Below, piece by piece: positions 23,011-42,935 of a stretch of 64,000 bases of DNA; the stretch's first letter is position 1; every line of letters begins with the position of its first letter. The DNA is from Sandaracinaceae bacterium (GTDB taxonomy: Bacteria; Myxococcota_A; Polyangia; Polyangiales; Sandaracinaceae): positions 1-64,000 of the forward strand of contig JAHBWG010000024.1 of assembly GCA_019637095.1 (NCBI GenBank), in the 5' to 3' direction. Position numbers and translations under genes: made by a program. The notes under the pieces were generated by a model. That model had not been told where the DNA came from and searched no databases. It worked only from the letters and a program-made list of their open reading frames with translations.

Positions 23011-24570
23011 ATGGACCCTCGCCTCGGCCGCCGCTCTTTCCTCGAGACGGGGGCGATCGTCCTCGCGATGCCGGGCGCGCTCGCCGCGTGCGGCGCCTCG
23101 CCGCGCTCGGTCGCCGCGCCGCCGCCCGCGAGCCCGGCGAGCCCGCTCGCGCCGTTCGCCGACGTGTTCGGCGTGGACGAGGCGATGATCCGCGCCGCGC
23201 TCGCGGAGCTCACCTCGCGCGGCGCCGATCAGGCCGAGCTCTACTTCCAGTCCGCGCGCTCCACCTCGATCGACCTCGAGGACGGGATCATCAGCCGCGC
23301 CCACGCGAGCGTGGACCTCGGCGTGGGCCTGCGCTGCGTGGTCGGCGAGCAGACGGGCTACGCGTACACCGAGGAGCTCACGCGCGAGTCGATGGTCGCG
23401 GCCGCGCGCACCGCGGCGGCGATCGCGTCGGGTGGGCGCGCCGCGCCGCCCGAGCGCATCCAGCACGTCGCCTTGCCCCACCAGCGCTACGCGATCGAGA
23501 TCCCGTGGCGCGACGTGGGCGTGAACGACAAGCTCCCGCTCATCCAGCGCGCGGCGGCGCTCGCGCGCGCGGCGGACCCGGCGATCGCGAAGGTCGAGAT
23601 CTCGTGGCTCGACGGCGAGTCGCGCGTCCTCGTCTGCGACATGCACGGGCGCATGGTCTACGACGAGCGGCCGATGACGCGGCTGTACGTCACGGTGACG
23701 GCCGAGCGCGCGGGCCAGCGTCAGACCAACCGCGCCAACATCGCGGCGCGCCGCGGCGTCGACTTCTACTCCGAGGAGAACCTGCGCACCGTCGTCCAGC
23801 AGGCGGTCGACCGCACGATGATCCTCTTCGATGCGCGCCGCCCGCCCGCCGGCGAGATGCCGGTCGTGCTCGCCGCGGGCGCGAGCGGGATCCTCCTGCA
23901 CGAGGCGATCGGCCACGGGATGGAGGCGGACTTCAACCGCAAGCGGATCAGCATCTACGCCGACATGCTCGGGCGAGAGGTCGCCGAGCCGTTCGTGACG
24001 ATCGTCGACGACGGCACCATCGAGCACGAGCGCGGCGCGCTCAACGTCGACGACGAGGGCCGCGAGGCCGAGCGCACGGTGCTCGTCGAGCGCGGGCGGC
24101 TCGTCTCGTACATGCACGACGGGATCAGCAGCCGGCACTACGGCGTCGCGGCGACCGGCTCGGGGCGGCGCGAGAGCTTCCGCTACCCGCCGATGCCGCG
24201 GATGCGCTGCACGTACATGGAGCCCGGCCCGCACACGCGTGACGAGATCGTCGCGTCGGTCGAGCGCGGGATCCTCGCCGAGACGTTCACCAACGGGCAG
24301 GTCCAGATCGGCGCGGGCGACTACACCTTCTACATCAAGAACGGCTGGCTCATCGAGGACGGGCGGCTCAGCGCGCCGATCAAGGACGTGAACATCATCG
24401 GCACCGGGCCCGAGACCTTGCGGCGCATCTCGATGGTCGCCGACGACGCGCAGCTCGACACGGGCGGCTGGAGCTGCGGCAAGCGCGGGCAGACCGTGCC
24501 CGTCTCGATCGGCATCCCGACCGTGCTCGTCCGGCAGCTCACCGTGGGAGGCGAGAACCGTGCTGGCTGA
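23011..24570 (+). CDS. tldD: TldD-type metalloprotease with a Tat lipoprotein signal
   Basis: 519 residues. The N-terminus carries a twin-arginine motif (GRRSFLETG, about 5-13), a hydrophobic stretch and a lipobox (GALAACG, Cys about 30), followed by an Ala/Pro linker, so the protein should cross the membrane folded and be lipid-anchored. The rest is a complete TldD: the zinc motif HEAIGHGMEAD (about 297) and a C-terminal GGWSCGKRGQ segment. TldD with TldE forms a protease that trims peptides such as microcin B17 and CcdA, normally in the cytoplasm. Export is therefore unusual. tldE overlaps by 11 bp. The start at 23011 is required for the Tat signal. Confidence 0.92.
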   Translation: MDPRLGRRSFLETGAIVLAMPGALAACGASPRSVAAPPPASPASPLAPFADVFGVDEAMIRAALAELTSRGADQAELYFQSARSTSIDLEDGIISRAHASVDLGVGLRCVVGEQTGYAYTEELTRESMVAAARTAAAIASGGRAAPPERIQHVALPHQRYAIEIPWRDVGVNDKLPLIQRAAALARAADPAIAKVEISWLDGESRVLVCDMHGRMVYDERPMTRLYVTVTAERAGQRQTNRANIAARRGVDFYSEENLRTVVQQAVDRTMILFDARRPPAGEMPVVLAAGASGILLHEAIGHGMEADFNRKRISIYADMLGREVAEPFVTIVDDGTIEHERGALNVDDEGREAERTVLVERGRLVSYMHDGISSRHYGVAATGSGRRESFRYPPMPRMRCTYMEPGPHTRDEIVASVERGILAETFTNGQVQIGAGDYTFYIKNGWLIEDGRLSAPIKDVNIIGTGPETLRRISMVADDAQLDTGGWSCGKRGQTVPVSIGIPTVLVRQLTVGGENRAG

Positions 24571-25873
24571 GCTCACGGAGCGCGCGGACGACGCGATCCG
24601 CGTGGCCCGCGCCGCGGGCGCGGACGAGGTCTTCGCGAGCGCGGACCGCACGCGCGGGGTCGAGGTGCAGGTCCGCGACGGCGCGATCGAGAAGCTCGAG
24701 GAGAGCACGAGCCGCGGCCTCAGCGTCCGGCTCTACGTGCGCGGGCGCTACGGCACCTACCGCACGAGCGATCTGCGGCCCGAGCCGCTCCGCGCGTTCA
24801 TCGCCGACGCGGTCGCGATGACGCGCGCGCTCGAGCGCGACCCGTTCCGGATCATCCCGGACCCGGCGCTCTACGAGGGGCGCTCGACCGAGGACCTCGG
24901 CCTGCTCGACCCGGCGATCCTCGCGCTCGACATGGACACGCGCATCCGCTGGTGCATGGAGCTGTCCGCCGAGTGCCGGCACGAGCGGCTGGTGAGCGCG
25001 ACGGTCGGCGCCAACGACGGTCACTCGCTCGTCGCCTCGGCGAGCAGCAACGGCTTCCGAGGGACGCACGAGCGCACGGTCCACTGGCGCGGCGTCGGCG
25101 TCACGCTGCGCGACGAGGGCGACGCGCGGCCGGAGGGCCACTACTGGGTCGGCGCGCGGCACCTCGCGGACGTGCCGGACACCGCGCGCGTCGGCGCCGC
25201 GGGCCTCGAGGACGCGGTGCGCCGCCTCGGCGCGACGTCGGGGCCGACGCGGCGCACGACGATGGTCGTCGAGCCGCGCGCGGGCGCGCGCCTGATCGGC
25301 CTGTTGCTCGGCCCCGCGAACGCGAGCGCGTTCAGCCAGCAGCGCTCCTTCTGGCGCGAGCGCGTCGGCGCGCGCGCCGTGTCGTCACGGCTCGAGGTCA
25401 CCGACGAGCCGCTGATCGTGCGCGGTCACGGCTCGCGCTACTACGACGCAGAGGGGATCGCCGCGCGCCCGCTCCCGATCGTGACGGGCGGCGCGCTCGT
25501 GAACCTCTACGTCGACACGTACTACGGCCGCAAGATCGAGCGGCCGCCGACGACGGGAAGCACCTCCAACCTCGTCGTGCGCCCGGGCGCCCGCGATCTG
25601 CGCGCGATCGTCGCGGACGTGCGGGAGGGCTACCTCGTGACGAGCTGGCTCGGCGGCAACTCCGACGCGACGACGGGCGACTTCAGCCTCGGCCTGCGCG
25701 GCCACCGCATCGAGCGCGGCCAGATCGGCGGCCCGGTGCAGGAGATGAACGTCACCGGCAACCTGCTCACGCTCTTCTCGGCGCTGGCCGAGGTCGGCAG
25801 CGACCCGTGGCCGTACGGCTCCACGCTCGTACCGACGCTCGCGTTCGAAGGCGTGCAGTTCAGCGGCGCGTGA
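24560..25873 (+). CDS. pmbA: TldE/PmbA, partner of TldD
   Basis: 437 residues from GTG 24560, with GGGAGG just upstream inside tldD. It has the TldE/PmbA layout: N-terminal repeat-like domain, GTYRTSDLRPE loop, NLYVDTYYGRK and a C-terminal GGPVQEMNVTGN motif. As expected for TldE it has no zinc-binding HExxxH. There is no signal peptide, unlike its TldD partner. Possible explanations are co-export of the folded heterodimer through the Tat system by hitch-hiking, or separate compartments. The 11-bp overlap with tldD argues for a stoichiometric complex. Confidence 0.9.
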   Translation: MLAELTERADDAIRVARAAGADEVFASADRTRGVEVQVRDGAIEKLEESTSRGLSVRLYVRGRYGTYRTSDLRPEPLRAFIADAVAMTRALERDPFRIIPDPALYEGRSTEDLGLLDPAILALDMDTRIRWCMELSAECRHERLVSATVGANDGHSLVASASSNGFRGTHERTVHWRGVGVTLRDEGDARPEGHYWVGARHLADVPDTARVGAAGLEDAVRRLGATSGPTRRTTMVVEPRAGARLIGLLLGPANASAFSQQRSFWRERVGARAVSSRLEVTDEPLIVRGHGSRYYDAEGIAARPLPIVTGGALVNLYVDTYYGRKIERPPTTGSTSNLVVRPGARDLRAIVADVREGYLVTSWLGGNSDATTGDFSLGLRGHRIERGQIGGPVQEMNVTGNLLTLFSALAEVGSDPWPYGSTLVPTLAFEGVQFSGA

Positions 25874-25880
25874 GCCCGCG

Positions 25881-26495
25881 TCAGCGTGAGCGCGGCGGCT
25901 CGTCGGATGCGAGCAGTCGCATGACCTCGCGCCGCAGCTTCGCCAACGATGGGCAGTCGGGCTCGGGGACGAGCGACATCCGGGCCGTCAACTTCTCTTG
26001 ATGGATGACCTCGCGGTAGCGGCCACCGCTCATGTGACGAGACAGCCAGCCCTTCGCGTCGCGGATCGCCTCGGGGTCGTCTGGAGGCGCGAGGTCGAGC
26101 GGGAGCCCAGCCACCCCGCGGAGCGAGGTGGCCGAGGCGAGGAGCCACGCCTCGAACTCGCGCACGGCGAGGACGACGGCGAGCCGAACGTCCGAGCGTG
26201 CGCGCGACGCGCGGGCGCGGAGCTCGGGCCCGAGCGAGCAGGCGGTGTCGTCGTCGGCGTCGAGCAGGATCAGCACTGCCCCTCCGGGGCCGGTACGACG
26301 CGCCGCGAGCTCGACGGCGCGCTCGAGCTCGCCCGGACGCAGGAGCCGGCTGCGCGGGACGCGCAGGACGTCGCTCGTCGTGAGCTCGGGCATCGCGAGG
26401 CCCTCGGGATCGCGCTCCCACAGGCGCCGTAGGAGGATCGGGACCGCGGTCGTCTCTCCGTGCCCCTCGACGATGCAAGCGACCCTGCGGGTCAC
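25881..26495 (-). CDS. DUF4276 (TOPRIM-like) protein, partner of the AAA ATPase
   Basis: 204 residues. Conserved acidic motifs fit a TOPRIM-like metal centre: VEGHGET (about 9) and LILLDADDDT (about 76), with EFEAWLLAS (about 111) typical of DUF4276. GTG 26495 overlaps the ATPase stop as GTGA, so it is made with the ATPase. Toprim proteins paired with AAA/ABC ATPases (OLD, GajA of Gabija, AriA-AriB of PARIS) are anti-phage nucleases; DUF4276 partners are less well characterised. A nuclease activated by the ATPase is the likely role, but inferred. A housekeeping role is possible. The gene converges with tldE with 7 bp between. Confidence 0.85.
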   Translation of the reverse strand: MTRRVACIVEGHGETTAVPILLRRLWERDPEGLAMPELTTSDVLRVPRSRLLRPGELERAVELAARRTGPGGAVLILLDADDDTACSLGPELRARASRARSDVRLAVVLAVREFEAWLLASATSLRGVAGLPLDLAPPDDPEAIRDAKGWLSRHMSGGRYREVIHQEKLTARMSLVPEPDCPSLAKLRREVMRLLASDEPPRSR

Positions 26496-27724
26496 TCCGC
26501 CGCTCCGCCAGCGGGAGCGAAGAGATCGAGCTGCTCGGGCGAGACCCCTCGAGCGCTCTCGTGCGGTTCGAGCTGCCCCATGCGGAGCAGCTCACCCGCG
26601 GTGTAGAGGTGATCGCGCAGCGCGCCACGGCCGACGTCCGTGATCGGACCGAGCGTCGTGACGCCTTCCTCGGCCGCCACCGCCACGATCTGGGGGTCCG
26701 AGACGTCCTCGCTCTCGAGCAGATCAGGGCTGTGGCTCGTGACGACGACCTGAGTGTGCGCGGAGGCTTCGAGGAGCGCCTCGAGGAGCACCGTGGCAGC
26801 GGCGGGGTGGATCGCCGATTCGGGCTCCTCGATGCCGATGAGCGGCACCGGGTAGCCCGCGTCGCTCGCCTGCGCGAGGGCGACCAGCACCCCGAGCGCG
26901 CGGAGCGTGCCGTCGGACATGCTGCCGGCGAAGAACTTCCAGGGGTGCGCCGACCCCTTCACGGCCTGCCGGAAGAGCAGCGTCTCGCGGTGTGCGACGG
27001 CCTCGCGCGTCACGTCCTGGACGCCAGGGGCGATCTTGGCGAGGTAGGCCTTCACGCTCTTCATCGACTCCGGCGCCTCGGCCTCGAGGCGCCCGATGAC
27101 GCTGGCGAGGTTGCGCCCGTCGCGCACGAGTCGCCGGCCCGGGTCCGGCGGCTGCACCTCGCGGATCGCGGCGGGCGAGAGGTTGTAGAAGCTCATCGCC
27201 GAGAGCGCGTCGAAGACCTCTCGAAACTCGGGCGCTCCCGACATGGCGACGAGGTAGAGGCGGTCGGCGGCCGCCGCGGGCGGCCGCTCGATGGTGCAGC
27301 TCACGACGTCGCCGCGCCGCACGACGTAGCTCGCGCGCTCGGTCTCACCTCGAGCGAGCGGCAGACGATCGACGTCACAGCGCTCCTCCTTCACCTCGAA
27401 CGCGCCGTTCTTGCGAGCGGCGATCTCGAACGCGAAGACGGCGCGGGCGTCGTGCGCGAGCTCGAGCTCGAGCCGGATCCCGAAGTTGTGCGGGTGCCCC
27501 GTCGAGCGCCGCCGCACGTCATCGATCCCGCCGCGCTCTCGGAGCGCATGGTCGAGCGGCGAGGCCAGGCCATCGGAGACGAGCCGCAGGGCGTCGAGGA
27601 AGTTGCTCTTGCCGCTCCCGTTGGAGCCGACGAGGAACGTCAGCATCCCGAGCCGGAGGTCGCAGGCCGCGATGCTCTTGTAGTTTCGCAGGACGACGCG
27701 GCGGACGAAGGGGCGGGCGGACAT
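26492..27724 (-). CDS. AAA_21/SMC-like ATPase, likely defence-type
   Basis: 410 residues, ATG 27724 with TAGGCT 8 nt upstream. The N-terminus VRRVVLRNYKSIAACDL and Walker A GSNGSGKSN (33-41) are typical of RecF/SMC-like and OLD-type ATPases. An ABC-like signature (GSMSDGTLRALG), Walker B LIGIEEPESAIHP and H-loop VVTSHSPDLLE are also present. The ATP site is complete and no nuclease domain is fused; the DUF4276 protein encoded next would supply it. Codon use seems slightly less GC-extreme than neighbours, which might hint at acquisition, though weakly. Between tldE and nth, a chromosomal position without mobile genes. Confidence 0.9.
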   Translation of the reverse strand: MSARPFVRRVVLRNYKSIAACDLRLGMLTFLVGSNGSGKSNFLDALRLVSDGLASPLDHALRERGGIDDVRRRSTGHPHNFGIRLELELAHDARAVFAFEIAARKNGAFEVKEERCDVDRLPLARGETERASYVVRRGDVVSCTIERPPAAAADRLYLVAMSGAPEFREVFDALSAMSFYNLSPAAIREVQPPDPGRRLVRDGRNLASVIGRLEAEAPESMKSVKAYLAKIAPGVQDVTREAVAHRETLLFRQAVKGSAHPWKFFAGSMSDGTLRALGVLVALAQASDAGYPVPLIGIEEPESAIHPAAATVLLEALLEASAHTQVVVTSHSPDLLESEDVSDPQIVAVAAEEGVTTLGPITDVGRGALRDHLYTAGELLRMGQLEPHESARGVSPEQLDLFAPAGGAAE

Positions 27725-27732
27725 CGCCTTCA

Positions 27733-27738
27733 AGCCTA
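27733..27738 (-). promoter_or_regulatory. -10-like box before the AAA ATPase gene
   Basis: The complement reads TAGGCT, 8 nt before ATG 27724. There is no Shine-Dalgarno. Confidence 0.45.
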
Positions 27739-27798
27739 CCTCGCCGGGCTCGCCTCGCCGGTGGCGATTCTCGGGCCGCCGCGCGGCGCTGCGCGCCG

Positions 27799-27812
27799 TA
27801 TGCTCGCGCGCG
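27799..27812 (+). promoter_or_regulatory. -10-like box before nth
   Basis: TATGCT (27799-27804) followed by 8 nt and ATG 27813; no Shine-Dalgarno. Confidence 0.45.
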
Positions 27813-28547
27813 ATGAGCGAGCGACCGATCGATCCCGAAGTGCAGCGGCAGGCCGACGACGTGCGCAAGCGGCTCGCGGTGGCGATCCCGAAGCCCGTGG
27901 TCGAGCTCGATCACGAGAACGCGTGGCAGCTCCTCGTCGCGACGATCCTCGCGGCGCAGGCGACCGACAAGAAGATCAACGAGCTCACGCCCGCCCTCTT
28001 CGCGCGCTACCCGGGGCCGCGCGAGCTCGCCGTCGCCGACCTCGCGGAGGTCGAGCGGCTCGTGAAGCAGTCCGGGTTCTTCCGCGAGAAGGCCAAGCGC
28101 ATCGTCGGCGCGGCGCAGGTGATCACCGAGCGCTTCGGCGGCGAGGTCCCCAAGACGATGGATCGCCTGCTGACGGTGCCGGGCGTCGCGCGCAAGACCG
28201 CGAACGTGGTGCTCGGCGTCGCGTTTCGGAGGCCGGCCGGCGTGGTCGTCGACACGCACGTCACGCGGCTCGCGGGACGGCTCGAGCTGTCGACGGAGAC
28301 GAGCCCCGAGAAGATCGAAGAGGACCTCATGGCGCTCTGGCCCAAGCGCGCGTGGATCGACACGAGCCACCGGCTGATCTTGCACGGTCGCTACGTGTGC
28401 AAGGCGAAGCAGCCGCGCTGCGGGCGCTGTCCGCTCCACGAGCTCTGCGGCGCGGCCGAGGGGGCGAAGGAGACGCGCGGCTGGAAGACGCGCGCGGCGT
28501 GGGAGCAGCGGCTCGTCGAGTCCAAGGGCGCCGTCGACGTCCTCTGA
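27813..28547 (+). CDS. nth: Endonuclease III
   Basis: 244 residues. Helix-hairpin-helix LLTVPGVARKTANVVLG contains the catalytic Lys (after GVAR), and VVVDTHVTRLAGRL holds the catalytic Asp. A C-terminal four-Cys cluster (VCKAKQPRCGRCPLHELC) binds 4Fe-4S. It is a DNA glycosylase/AP lyase removing oxidised pyrimidines in base-excision repair. The C-terminus extends about 30 residues past the cluster. TATGCT 8 nt upstream supports the ATG start. It diverges from the AAA/DUF4276 unit with 88 bp between start codons. Confidence 0.95.
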   Translation: MSERPIDPEVQRQADDVRKRLAVAIPKPVVELDHENAWQLLVATILAAQATDKKINELTPALFARYPGPRELAVADLAEVERLVKQSGFFREKAKRIVGAAQVITERFGGEVPKTMDRLLTVPGVARKTANVVLGVAFRRPAGVVVDTHVTRLAGRLELSTETSPEKIEEDLMALWPKRAWIDTSHRLILHGRYVCKAKQPRCGRCPLHELCGAAEGAKETRGWKTRAAWEQRLVESKGAVDVL

Positions 28548-41162: not shown

Positions 41163-42935
41163 ATGTCGAACGACGTGCGGCGAGTGCTCGTGGTCTCTGG
41201 CGACCCGCGGTGCGGTGAGCTCGCCGAGCGGCTCGGGCGGAGCGGCCGCGTGGAGGTCCGCTGCGCGTCGGCGGTGGATGATGCAATCGAGCTTGTCGGC
41301 GCGTGGCGTCCCGCGGCGATGCTCGTCGACCCGACGGCGCTCGAGCCAGGGGAGGCGGAGCGCGCCGTCGAGGCCTTCGACCACGTCGAGGGGGGGCTGT
41401 GCGCGCTGCTCGCCGAGGAGCCCAGCGGAGAGACCGCGAGCGAAGCGCTGCGTCTGGGGGCCGACACGGTCCTCGCCTGGTCGGTGGACGTCTCGACGAT
41501 GTTCCGCTGCTTCGGCTGGGAGGACACGTCCGCGACGCCCGAGCTCGCCGACAGCGCGCTTCCGCCGTTCGTCGTGGGCTCGTGCCCGGCGATGCGCGAG
41601 GTGTGGCGCCTCGTGTTCTTGGCCGCGCCGGACCAATGCTCGGTGCTGATCTCGGGTGAGACGGGGGCCGGCAAGGAGGTGGTGGCGCGCGCGCTCCACC
41701 GGTTCTCGGCGCGGCGCAAGGGCCCCTTCGTGGCGGTCAACTGCGCGGCGCTCCCCGAAGGGCTCCTCGAGTCCGAGCTCTTCGGGCACGAGAAGGGCGC
41801 GTTCACGGACGCCAGCTCGCGCCGGCTGGGCCGGTTCGAGCTCGCGGACGGCGGGACGCTGCTCCTCGACGAGATCGGCGACCTGCCGCTGTCCCTGCAA
41901 GCGAAGCTCTTGCGAGTGCTCCAGGAGCGGACCTTCGAGCGGCTCGGCGGCGCGACCCCGATCTCCGTCGACGTGCGCGTCGTCGCGGCGACCCATTGCG
42001 ACCTGGTCGAGGCGTGCCACGCGGGCCGGTTCCGCGCGGACCTCTACTACCGGCTCGACACGCTGACGATCCGCGTGCCGCCGCTGCGGGAGTGTCGCGA
42101 GGACATCCTCGGGCTGTGGCGCTACTTCGTGGCGGCGGGCGCGCAGAGGCGCGGGCGCGCGGCGCCGGTGACCTCCGAGGCCGTGCTGCGCCGGCTGCTC
42201 CGCTACGACTGGCCGGGCAACGTGCGCGAGCTGCAGAGCGCCGCCGCGCACGCGCTCACGGTCGGAGTCGGTGACACGATCGGCGTGGACGACCTGCCCG
42301 AGCACCTGCGAGGCGCTCGCCCGCTCGGGCGCCTGCCGGGGCTGCTCGGGATGACGCTCCGCGAGGTCGAGCGCGAGCTGATCCTCCAGACGTTCTCCGC
42401 GTTGGAGAGCGCCTCCGCGACCGCGGAGATGATCGGGATCTCGACGCGGAAGGTGCAGTATCGCCTCAAGCAGTACCGGCTCGCCGACGCGGCCGACGCG
42501 CGCGCGTCGGCGGCGCCGGCCGACGAGACCGGAACGGTCGCCGGCCCGCGCGTGCTGCTCGCGGAGGACGACGACGAGATGCGCGACGTGCTCGAGGAGT
42601 TCCTCGAGGGCGGGGGCTTCAGCGTCACCGCGGTCGCCACGGGGCGCGCGGCGCTCGAGGAGCTCGCGCGCGAGTCCGGCGCGGACCTGGCGCCGGACGT
42701 CGTGCTCACCGACGTGCGCATGCCGGAGATGACGGGCATCCAGCTCTTGCGCACGCTGCGCGAGCGGGGCTCGAGCGTCCCGGTCATCGTCGTCAGCGCC
42801 TTCGCCGACGACGCCAGCGAGGCCGAGGCGAAGCGGCTCGGCGCCTGCGCGTTCCTCCCCAAGCCGATCGACCCCGCGCGGCTCGAGGACGCGCTGCGCG
42901 ACGCGGTGCACGGCGCCGCGCACCGGGCGCCGTAA
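41163..42935 (+). CDS. Sigma-54 activator with N-terminal pseudo-receiver and C-terminal receiver
   Basis: 590 residues. N-terminal receiver-like domain (1-120) keeps LVDP but lacks the paired acidic residues and Lys, so it is probably a pseudo-receiver. AAA+ domain 140-370: GETGAGKE (Walker A), LLLDEIGD (Walker B), RADLYYRL. The sigma-54 loop reads GAFTDA instead of GAFTGA. Fis-type helix-turn-helix about 415-440 (AEMIGISTRKVQYRLKQY). A full receiver follows (461-585; LLAEDDDEM, TDVRMPEMTG, LPKPID), an unusual order. Likely controls sigma-54 promoters such as the one at 20146. Divergent kinase and nearby response regulator are candidate partners. Ribosome-binding site AGGGGG is 8 nt upstream. 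Confidence 0.92.
   Translation: MSNDVRRVLVVSGDPRCGELAERLGRSGRVEVRCASAVDDAIELVGAWRPAAMLVDPTALEPGEAERAVEAFDHVEGGLCALLAEEPSGETASEALRLGADTVLAWSVDVSTMFRCFGWEDTSATPELADSALPPFVVGSCPAMREVWRLVFLAAPDQCSVLISGETGAGKEVVARALHRFSARRKGPFVAVNCAALPEGLLESELFGHEKGAFTDASSRRLGRFELADGGTLLLDEIGDLPLSLQAKLLRVLQERTFERLGGATPISVDVRVVAATHCDLVEACHAGRFRADLYYRLDTLTIRVPPLRECREDILGLWRYFVAAGAQRRGRAAPVTSEAVLRRLLRYDWPGNVRELQSAAAHALTVGVGDTIGVDDLPEHLRGARPLGRLPGLLGMTLREVERELILQTFSALESASATAEMIGISTRKVQYRLKQYRLADAADARASAAPADETGTVAGPRVLLAEDDDEMRDVLEEFLEGGGFSVTAVATGRAALEELARESGADLAPDVVLTDVRMPEMTGIQLLRTLRERGSSVPVIVVSAFADDASEAEAKRLGACAFLPKPIDPARLEDALRDAVHGAAHRAP

Follow-up and report, generated by a model that had tools for sequence, protein, structure and literature searches.

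The window, which is the whole 64-kb stretch of DNA that was analysed, features a pair of overlapping genes on the minus strand that lies between a tldE-like gene and an nth-like gene, both on the plus strand. The genes and their overlap are located as follows.

24560–25873, plus strand: tldE-like gene (Pfam PmbA_TldD), flanking context outside the module
25881–26495, minus strand: DUF4276 protein of 204 aa, HEC-01B family (PADLOC PDLC04196), a probable TOPRIM two-metal nuclease
26492–26495, minus strand: 4-nt GTGA, shared by the end of the ATPase gene and the beginning of the DUF4276 gene
26492–27724, minus strand: first gene of the pair, an ABC/OLD-type ATPase of 410 aa, HEC-01A family (PADLOC PDLC04178)
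27813–28547, plus strand: nth-like gene, endonuclease III (Pfam HhH-GPD and endonuclease III iron-sulfur motif), flanking context outside the module

The ATPase reading frame begins with an ATG at 27724 and ends with a TGA at 26492, and the DUF4276 gene starts with a GTG at 26495 and ends with a TGA at 25881. The two genes are probably translationally coupled because they have GTGA in common. A preliminary description of this DNA gave the coordinates and the overlap exactly, and its naming of the neighbours as tldE and nth is borne out by the Pfam matches. A chance pair of open reading frames is excluded, since homologues in many phyla keep the identical two-gene order.

The first protein of the pair matches Pfam AAA_21 (E 6e-30) and AAA_15 (E 9e-17). 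The preliminary description had called it an AAA ATPase with complete Walker A, Walker B, signature and H-loop motifs. All of these motifs are present and conserved in an alignment of 38 homologues, and the protein is an ATPase, but its type is ABC/SMC (OLD-like) and not strict AAA+.

27605–27628, minus strand: Walker A GSNGSGKS, ATPase residues 33–40
26906–26917, minus strand: ABC signature SDGT, ATPase residues 270–273
26825–26842, minus strand: Walker B region (GIEEPE), which ends in E299-E300
26732–26734, minus strand: H-loop H331 (TSHS)

G33, G38, K39, S270, G272, T273, E299 and H306 are invariant in the 38 homologues, and the position of H331 is occupied by His in 30 of them and by Gln in 8. 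The AlphaFold2 model of the ATPase (pLDDT 93.7) is an SMC/Rad50-type head, and the closest folds are Rad50/SMC heads (VIA Z 22–23) and PtuA (Z about 20–21). The 410-aa protein has no C-terminal TOPRIM domain. Eight Streptomyces-type relatives (L038, L040, L041, L042, L044, L046, L049 and L050), in which the ATPase is 33–36 % and the DUF4276 protein 43–45 % identical, feature a TTQS H-loop with Gln in place of His.

The second protein of the pair matches Pfam DUF4276 (PF14103) with an E of 7e-14. The VEGHGE (E10–E14) and DADDD (residues 79–83) acidic motifs that had been picked out previously are indeed present and conserved. The candidate active-site residues, with their conservation in 37 proteins, are distributed over four segments of the gene.

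26454–26468, minus strand: TOPRIM glutamate motif E10-G-H-G-E14, after strand 1; E10 in 37 of 37, residue 14 Glu in 34 and Asp in 3
26253–26261, minus strand: DxD motif D79-A-D81, at the end of strand 73–80; D79 in 36 of 37, D81 in 35 of 37
26151–26159, minus strand: E113-F-E115, candidate metal-B ligands, at the position of Burkholderia (Bp) OLD T506-x-E508 (PMC6755086); invariant in 37 of 37
26052–26054, minus strand: K148, candidate catalytic lysine, at the position of Bp OLD K562 (PMC6755086); invariant in 37 of 37

Across the 37 proteins E10, G11, G13, E113, E115, K148, Y160 and Q166 are invariant and E14 (E/D), D79 and D81 nearly so. The two-metal site of Burkholderia OLD consists of E400, E404, D455, D457, T506, E508 and K562 (PMC6755086). 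The DUF4276 residues have the identical order and short spacings (Glu-x3-Glu, Asp-x-Asp, a pair two apart that ends in Glu, and Lys), a correspondence that was set by motif order and not by residue-level superposition. The AlphaFold2 model of the DUF4276 protein, built on the 37-sequence alignment (pLDDT 92.4), features the TOPRIM order, in which E10 and E14 follow strand 1 (residues 4–9) and D79 and D81 end a later core strand (73–80). E113 and E115 are found after strand 104–111 and K148 at the start of a C-terminal helix.

Structural comparison with VIA placed the Burkholderia OLD TOPRIM (6nk8) first for the DUF4276 model with a Z of 8.4 and 172 aligned positions, which pair DUF4276 residues 1–196 with residues 391–594 of OLD, and the Xanthomonas OLD TOPRIM region third (Z 8.0, 164 aligned). 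Unrelated Rossmann-like folds, lumazine synthase and Argonaute MID, score nearly as high (Z 7.8–8.1), which would be expected if DUF4276 were not a nuclease but a Rossmann-like protein of another sort, such as a partner of the ATPase that processes nucleotides or binds to it. This reading is quite unlikely, as the conserved E-x3-E, DxD, ExE and K constitute the OLD two-metal set with its order kept, and one DUF4276 protein from the class of the source genome (L109, G148:C132), found with the Pfam OLD-like_TOPRIM model, reaches 21.9–23.6 bits, around the model cut-off of 23.2. L109 features VEGHTE and HEIEAW motifs and is a possible sequence bridge between the DUF4276 and OLD-like_TOPRIM families. 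The best Foldseek match of DUF4276 is the remote retron Eco2 TOPRIM protein (E 0.02). Profile comparison by hhalign against OLD TOPRIM regions from genomes of the class gave a P of 4e-4 with a probability of 36 %, against a P of 0.55 for a control profile, and the alignment pairs E10, E14 and the DxD motif. Searches of PDB sequences with DUF4276 alone and with the 37-sequence profile returned nothing relevant, and the viral structure library gave no usefully scoring match. Residues, fold and profile evidence combined make DUF4276 a likely TOPRIM nuclease, a conclusion that the fold scores by themselves would not support. The earlier wording "TOPRIM-like" holds well for the catalytic residues and the topology; the support for the fold is good but remote.

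Both proteins find their best PADLOC matches in one candidate defence family, in keeping with the preliminary description of the pair as a candidate anti-phage module. The ATPase matches HEC-01A (PDLC04178) with an E of 4.3e-155 over residues 2–402 of 410, and the DUF4276 protein matches HEC-01B (PDLC04196) with an E of 9.2e-65 over residues 4–197 of 204. The HEC-01 arrangement of two adjacent genes with the ATPase first is found at the source locus and in the relatives. Payne et al. 2024, a preprint on guilt by embedding, is said to be the source of the HEC candidates, with HEC-01 in PADLOC-DB v2. HEC means Hma-embedded candidate; according to publications that cite the preprint, 'guilt by embedding' brought these candidates to light, and some of them, HEC-05 and HEC-06, are functional (PMC12988326, PMC11411939; see also PMC10855318). 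Embedding in Hma is the origin of the HEC-01 name and, as far as the models show, is not demanded of every member; it is absent at the source locus, where the neighbours are tldE and nth, and present or nearly so in three relatives (L025, L026 and L029). In the open literature, with subscription papers and preprints mostly outside its scope, no experimental test of HEC-01 and no discussion of DUF4276 was found. NCBIfam gave solely matches far below cut-off, the best being MADS3. The pair looks to be a genuine, intact member of a catalogued, apparently experimentally uncharted candidate defence family. The suggestion that it may be a minimal two-gene system stands for the two-gene arrangement but not for a system yet unrecorded, as it is already catalogued as HEC-01. 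The pair is a further member of this known kind of system and not a new kind.

HEC-01 is matched at full length by both proteins and in gene order, and homologues lie in or beside Hma clusters; the source copy differs in standing alone between tldE and nth, outside Hma or a defence island. PARIS, which phage anti-restriction proteins such as Ocr activate, also features an ABC/OLD-type ATPase (AriA) and a TOPRIM nuclease (AriB) on separate genes. In this system the phage protein is sensed by AriA, and tRNA is what AriB cleaves (PMC12409363). The PARIS effector, however, is DUF4435 whereas the source effector is DUF4276, and the source ATPase is nearest HEC-01A, with far weaker AriA matches (E 7e-31). 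In the DUF4276 protein no match to DUF4435 (PF14491) was found at E up to 0.1 and no match to an AriB model in PADLOC; by domain content the pair is not a PARIS member because it lacks DUF4435. Class 1 OLD, Gabija GajA and the retron Eco8 OLD protein have in common with the pair an ATPase and a TOPRIM two-metal site with the residue order of Bp OLD, but in the source the domains are on separate genes. Additionally, the pair lacks the adjoining GajB helicase (UvrD-like) of Gabija and the reverse transcriptase of retron Eco8. With neither an ATPase-TOPRIM fusion nor GajB, the pair is, on its gene content, not Gabija or class 1 OLD. Septu and retron Eco7 PtuA-PtuB are alike in the ATPase fold, which is near that of PtuA, and in a separate nuclease gene, but PtuB is an HNH nuclease and the source nuclease is TOPRIM-like. 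AbiL (AbiLi/AbiLii) is matched distantly by the source ATPase (AbiLi, E 3e-20, PADLOC), whereas the HEC-01A match is more than 130 orders of magnitude better and the small protein has no AbiLii match in PADLOC.

The tldE–nth junction is without the pair in three genomes of the same family that belong to two other genera (G002:C260, G005:C12 and G008:C696). At these empty sites a tldE that is 73 % identical is directly followed by an nth that is 64–71 % identical, and the two genes overlap in G002 and are separated by less than 45 bases in G005 and G008. In the source window the two-gene pair is the sole insertion at this junction (25874–27812), and the search for a target-site duplication there gave no more than an 8-nt GC-rich match. 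The nine genomes of the same family contain no close homologue, and the HEC-01B family at E below 1e-20 is carried by 24 of 289 genomes and 20 of 145 genera of the class. Third-position GC is 0.91 and 0.88 in the pair genes, lower than the 0.954 (s.d. 0.025) of the window genes, which fits acquisition. As judged from these comparisons, the pair is horizontally acquired. Universal synteny among relatives, which had been named as a sign of a housekeeping function, is excluded: the pair is not housekeeping because of the empty sites in three genomes of the same family and the scattered carriage in the class. The same observations count against a DNA-repair or genome-maintenance pair, made up of a Rad50/RecF-like ATPase and a nuclease and placed by nth for that reason. 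The resemblance of the ATPase model to SMC/Rad50 heads and the adjoining repair gene, nth, speak for such a role, yet it is very unlikely with tldE–nth lacking the pair in three relatives, a scattered distribution and quite different neighbours in relatives elsewhere.

Among 84,980 scanned species genomes, a close relative of the DUF4276 protein turned up at 38 loci, in hosts that include Planctomycetota, Chloroflexota, Acidobacteriota, Poribacteria, Bdellovibrionales, Streptomyces, Achromobacter, Trinickia, Modestobacter, Pseudomonadota and others. A homologous ATPase gene lies directly upstream of the DUF4276 gene in 37 of the 38, and in at least 24 of these 37 pairs the genes overlap by 1 or 4 nt. 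The pairwise distances of the two proteins covary with a Mantel r of 0.72 over 33 loci and of 0.87 without Streptomyces, values that none of 1000 permutations reaches. By the measure of gene order and covarying distances, the ATPase–DUF4276 pair travels as a unit. One poribacterial locus (L034:6712-9953) features an ATPase–DUF4276–ATPase triplet, in which EKPE replaces EEPE at Walker B of the second ATPase; this change suggests an inactive regulatory duplicate. A reversed gene order considered for L034 was rejected, as the order proved to be ATPase–DUF4276–ATPase. L031, L033, L052 and L053 have an interrupted or shortened DUF4276 frame downstream of an ATPase frame that is mostly open, which would represent effector decay or assembly error.

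For the relatives, the nearest two genes to either side of the pair were surveyed. The pair is preceded by HmaB and followed by HmaC in L026, preceded by HmaA and followed by HmaB in L029, and followed by an HmaB-like reading frame and then by a HEC-03B gene in L025. On one Streptomyces plasmid the copy is preceded by a fic toxin gene and followed by Gabija genes (GajA E 6e-189, GajB E 1e-176). Most other relatives have metabolic flanks, for example sulfatases, PhyH, ThiC and GatB. Embedding in defence loci is a real but minority condition among the relatives. The source copy had been described as standing without other defence genes between tldE and nth, and no convincing defence neighbour was found in the 64-kb window either. 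PADLOC matches on kinases and a sigma-54 activator in the window were dismissed as generic. The activator (41163–42935, plus strand) features a GAFTDA motif, is likely the source of an RtcR/CARF-type PADLOC match (E 9e-96), and is probably an ordinary regulator.

The pair could also be aimed mainly at plasmids or other mobile DNA, or be an addiction module in which the ATPase restrains a toxic nuclease, and not be directed at phages. The same anatomy would serve these roles, and relatives of the pair are found on three large Streptomyces plasmids, in two cases with transposase and conjugal transfer genes nearby, and on one putative phage contig. The Hma embedding and the Gabija neighbour, however, point to anti-phage company, and the source copy occupies a housekeeping locus of the chromosome that has no mobile genes, which leaves this alternative unlikely.

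The locus is best explained, with good though not high confidence, as a self-contained, horizontally acquired two-gene HEC-01 defence module that consists of an ATPase sensor and a TOPRIM nuclease effector. Observed were the gene pair, its membership of the family, the conservation of catalytic residues, the folds of the models, a scattered distribution and the empty site. We infer for the pair a nuclease activity, complex formation, a trigger, a substrate and phage defence. Most likely, a sensor ATPase of the OLD/Septu kind controls a TOPRIM two-metal nuclease encoded by its own gene, as PARIS does. The ABC/OLD-type ATPase (HEC-01A) would be the sensor and regulator. The effector would be DUF4276 (HEC-01B), a TOPRIM-type nuclease on a separate chain that uses two metals (Mg2+) and is restrained by, or activated through, the ATPase. 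In an infected cell the ATPase would detect a phage product or a DNA state and permit the nuclease to cut nucleic acid, either DNA as in OLD and Gabija or tRNA as in PARIS AriB, and the phage would be blocked or the cell stopped.

New in the present analysis are the conservation of the pair across phyla, the empty tldE–nth site and the DUF4276 residues in OLD TOPRIM order. The clean empty site means that the bare pair arrived alone in a housekeeping locus, and searches based on defence islands would miss such copies. As a more tentative proposal, DUF4276 may be an unrecognised family of TOPRIM nucleases with a complete OLD two-metal site, and HEC-01 may be an immune system in its own right, a split form of OLD that differs from PARIS and Gabija, has its own trigger and substrate and has spread as just the two genes, away from defence islands. 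Pfam still lists DUF4276 as a domain of unknown function; with its placement among the OLD-type TOPRIM nucleases and with seven residues named, the catalogued candidate becomes a two-gene system open to experiment. The source genome contains a second DUF4276 gene (L010, G000:C146:44055-44681), which is a much better Pfam match (160 bits) and adjoins a different, distantly related ATPase.
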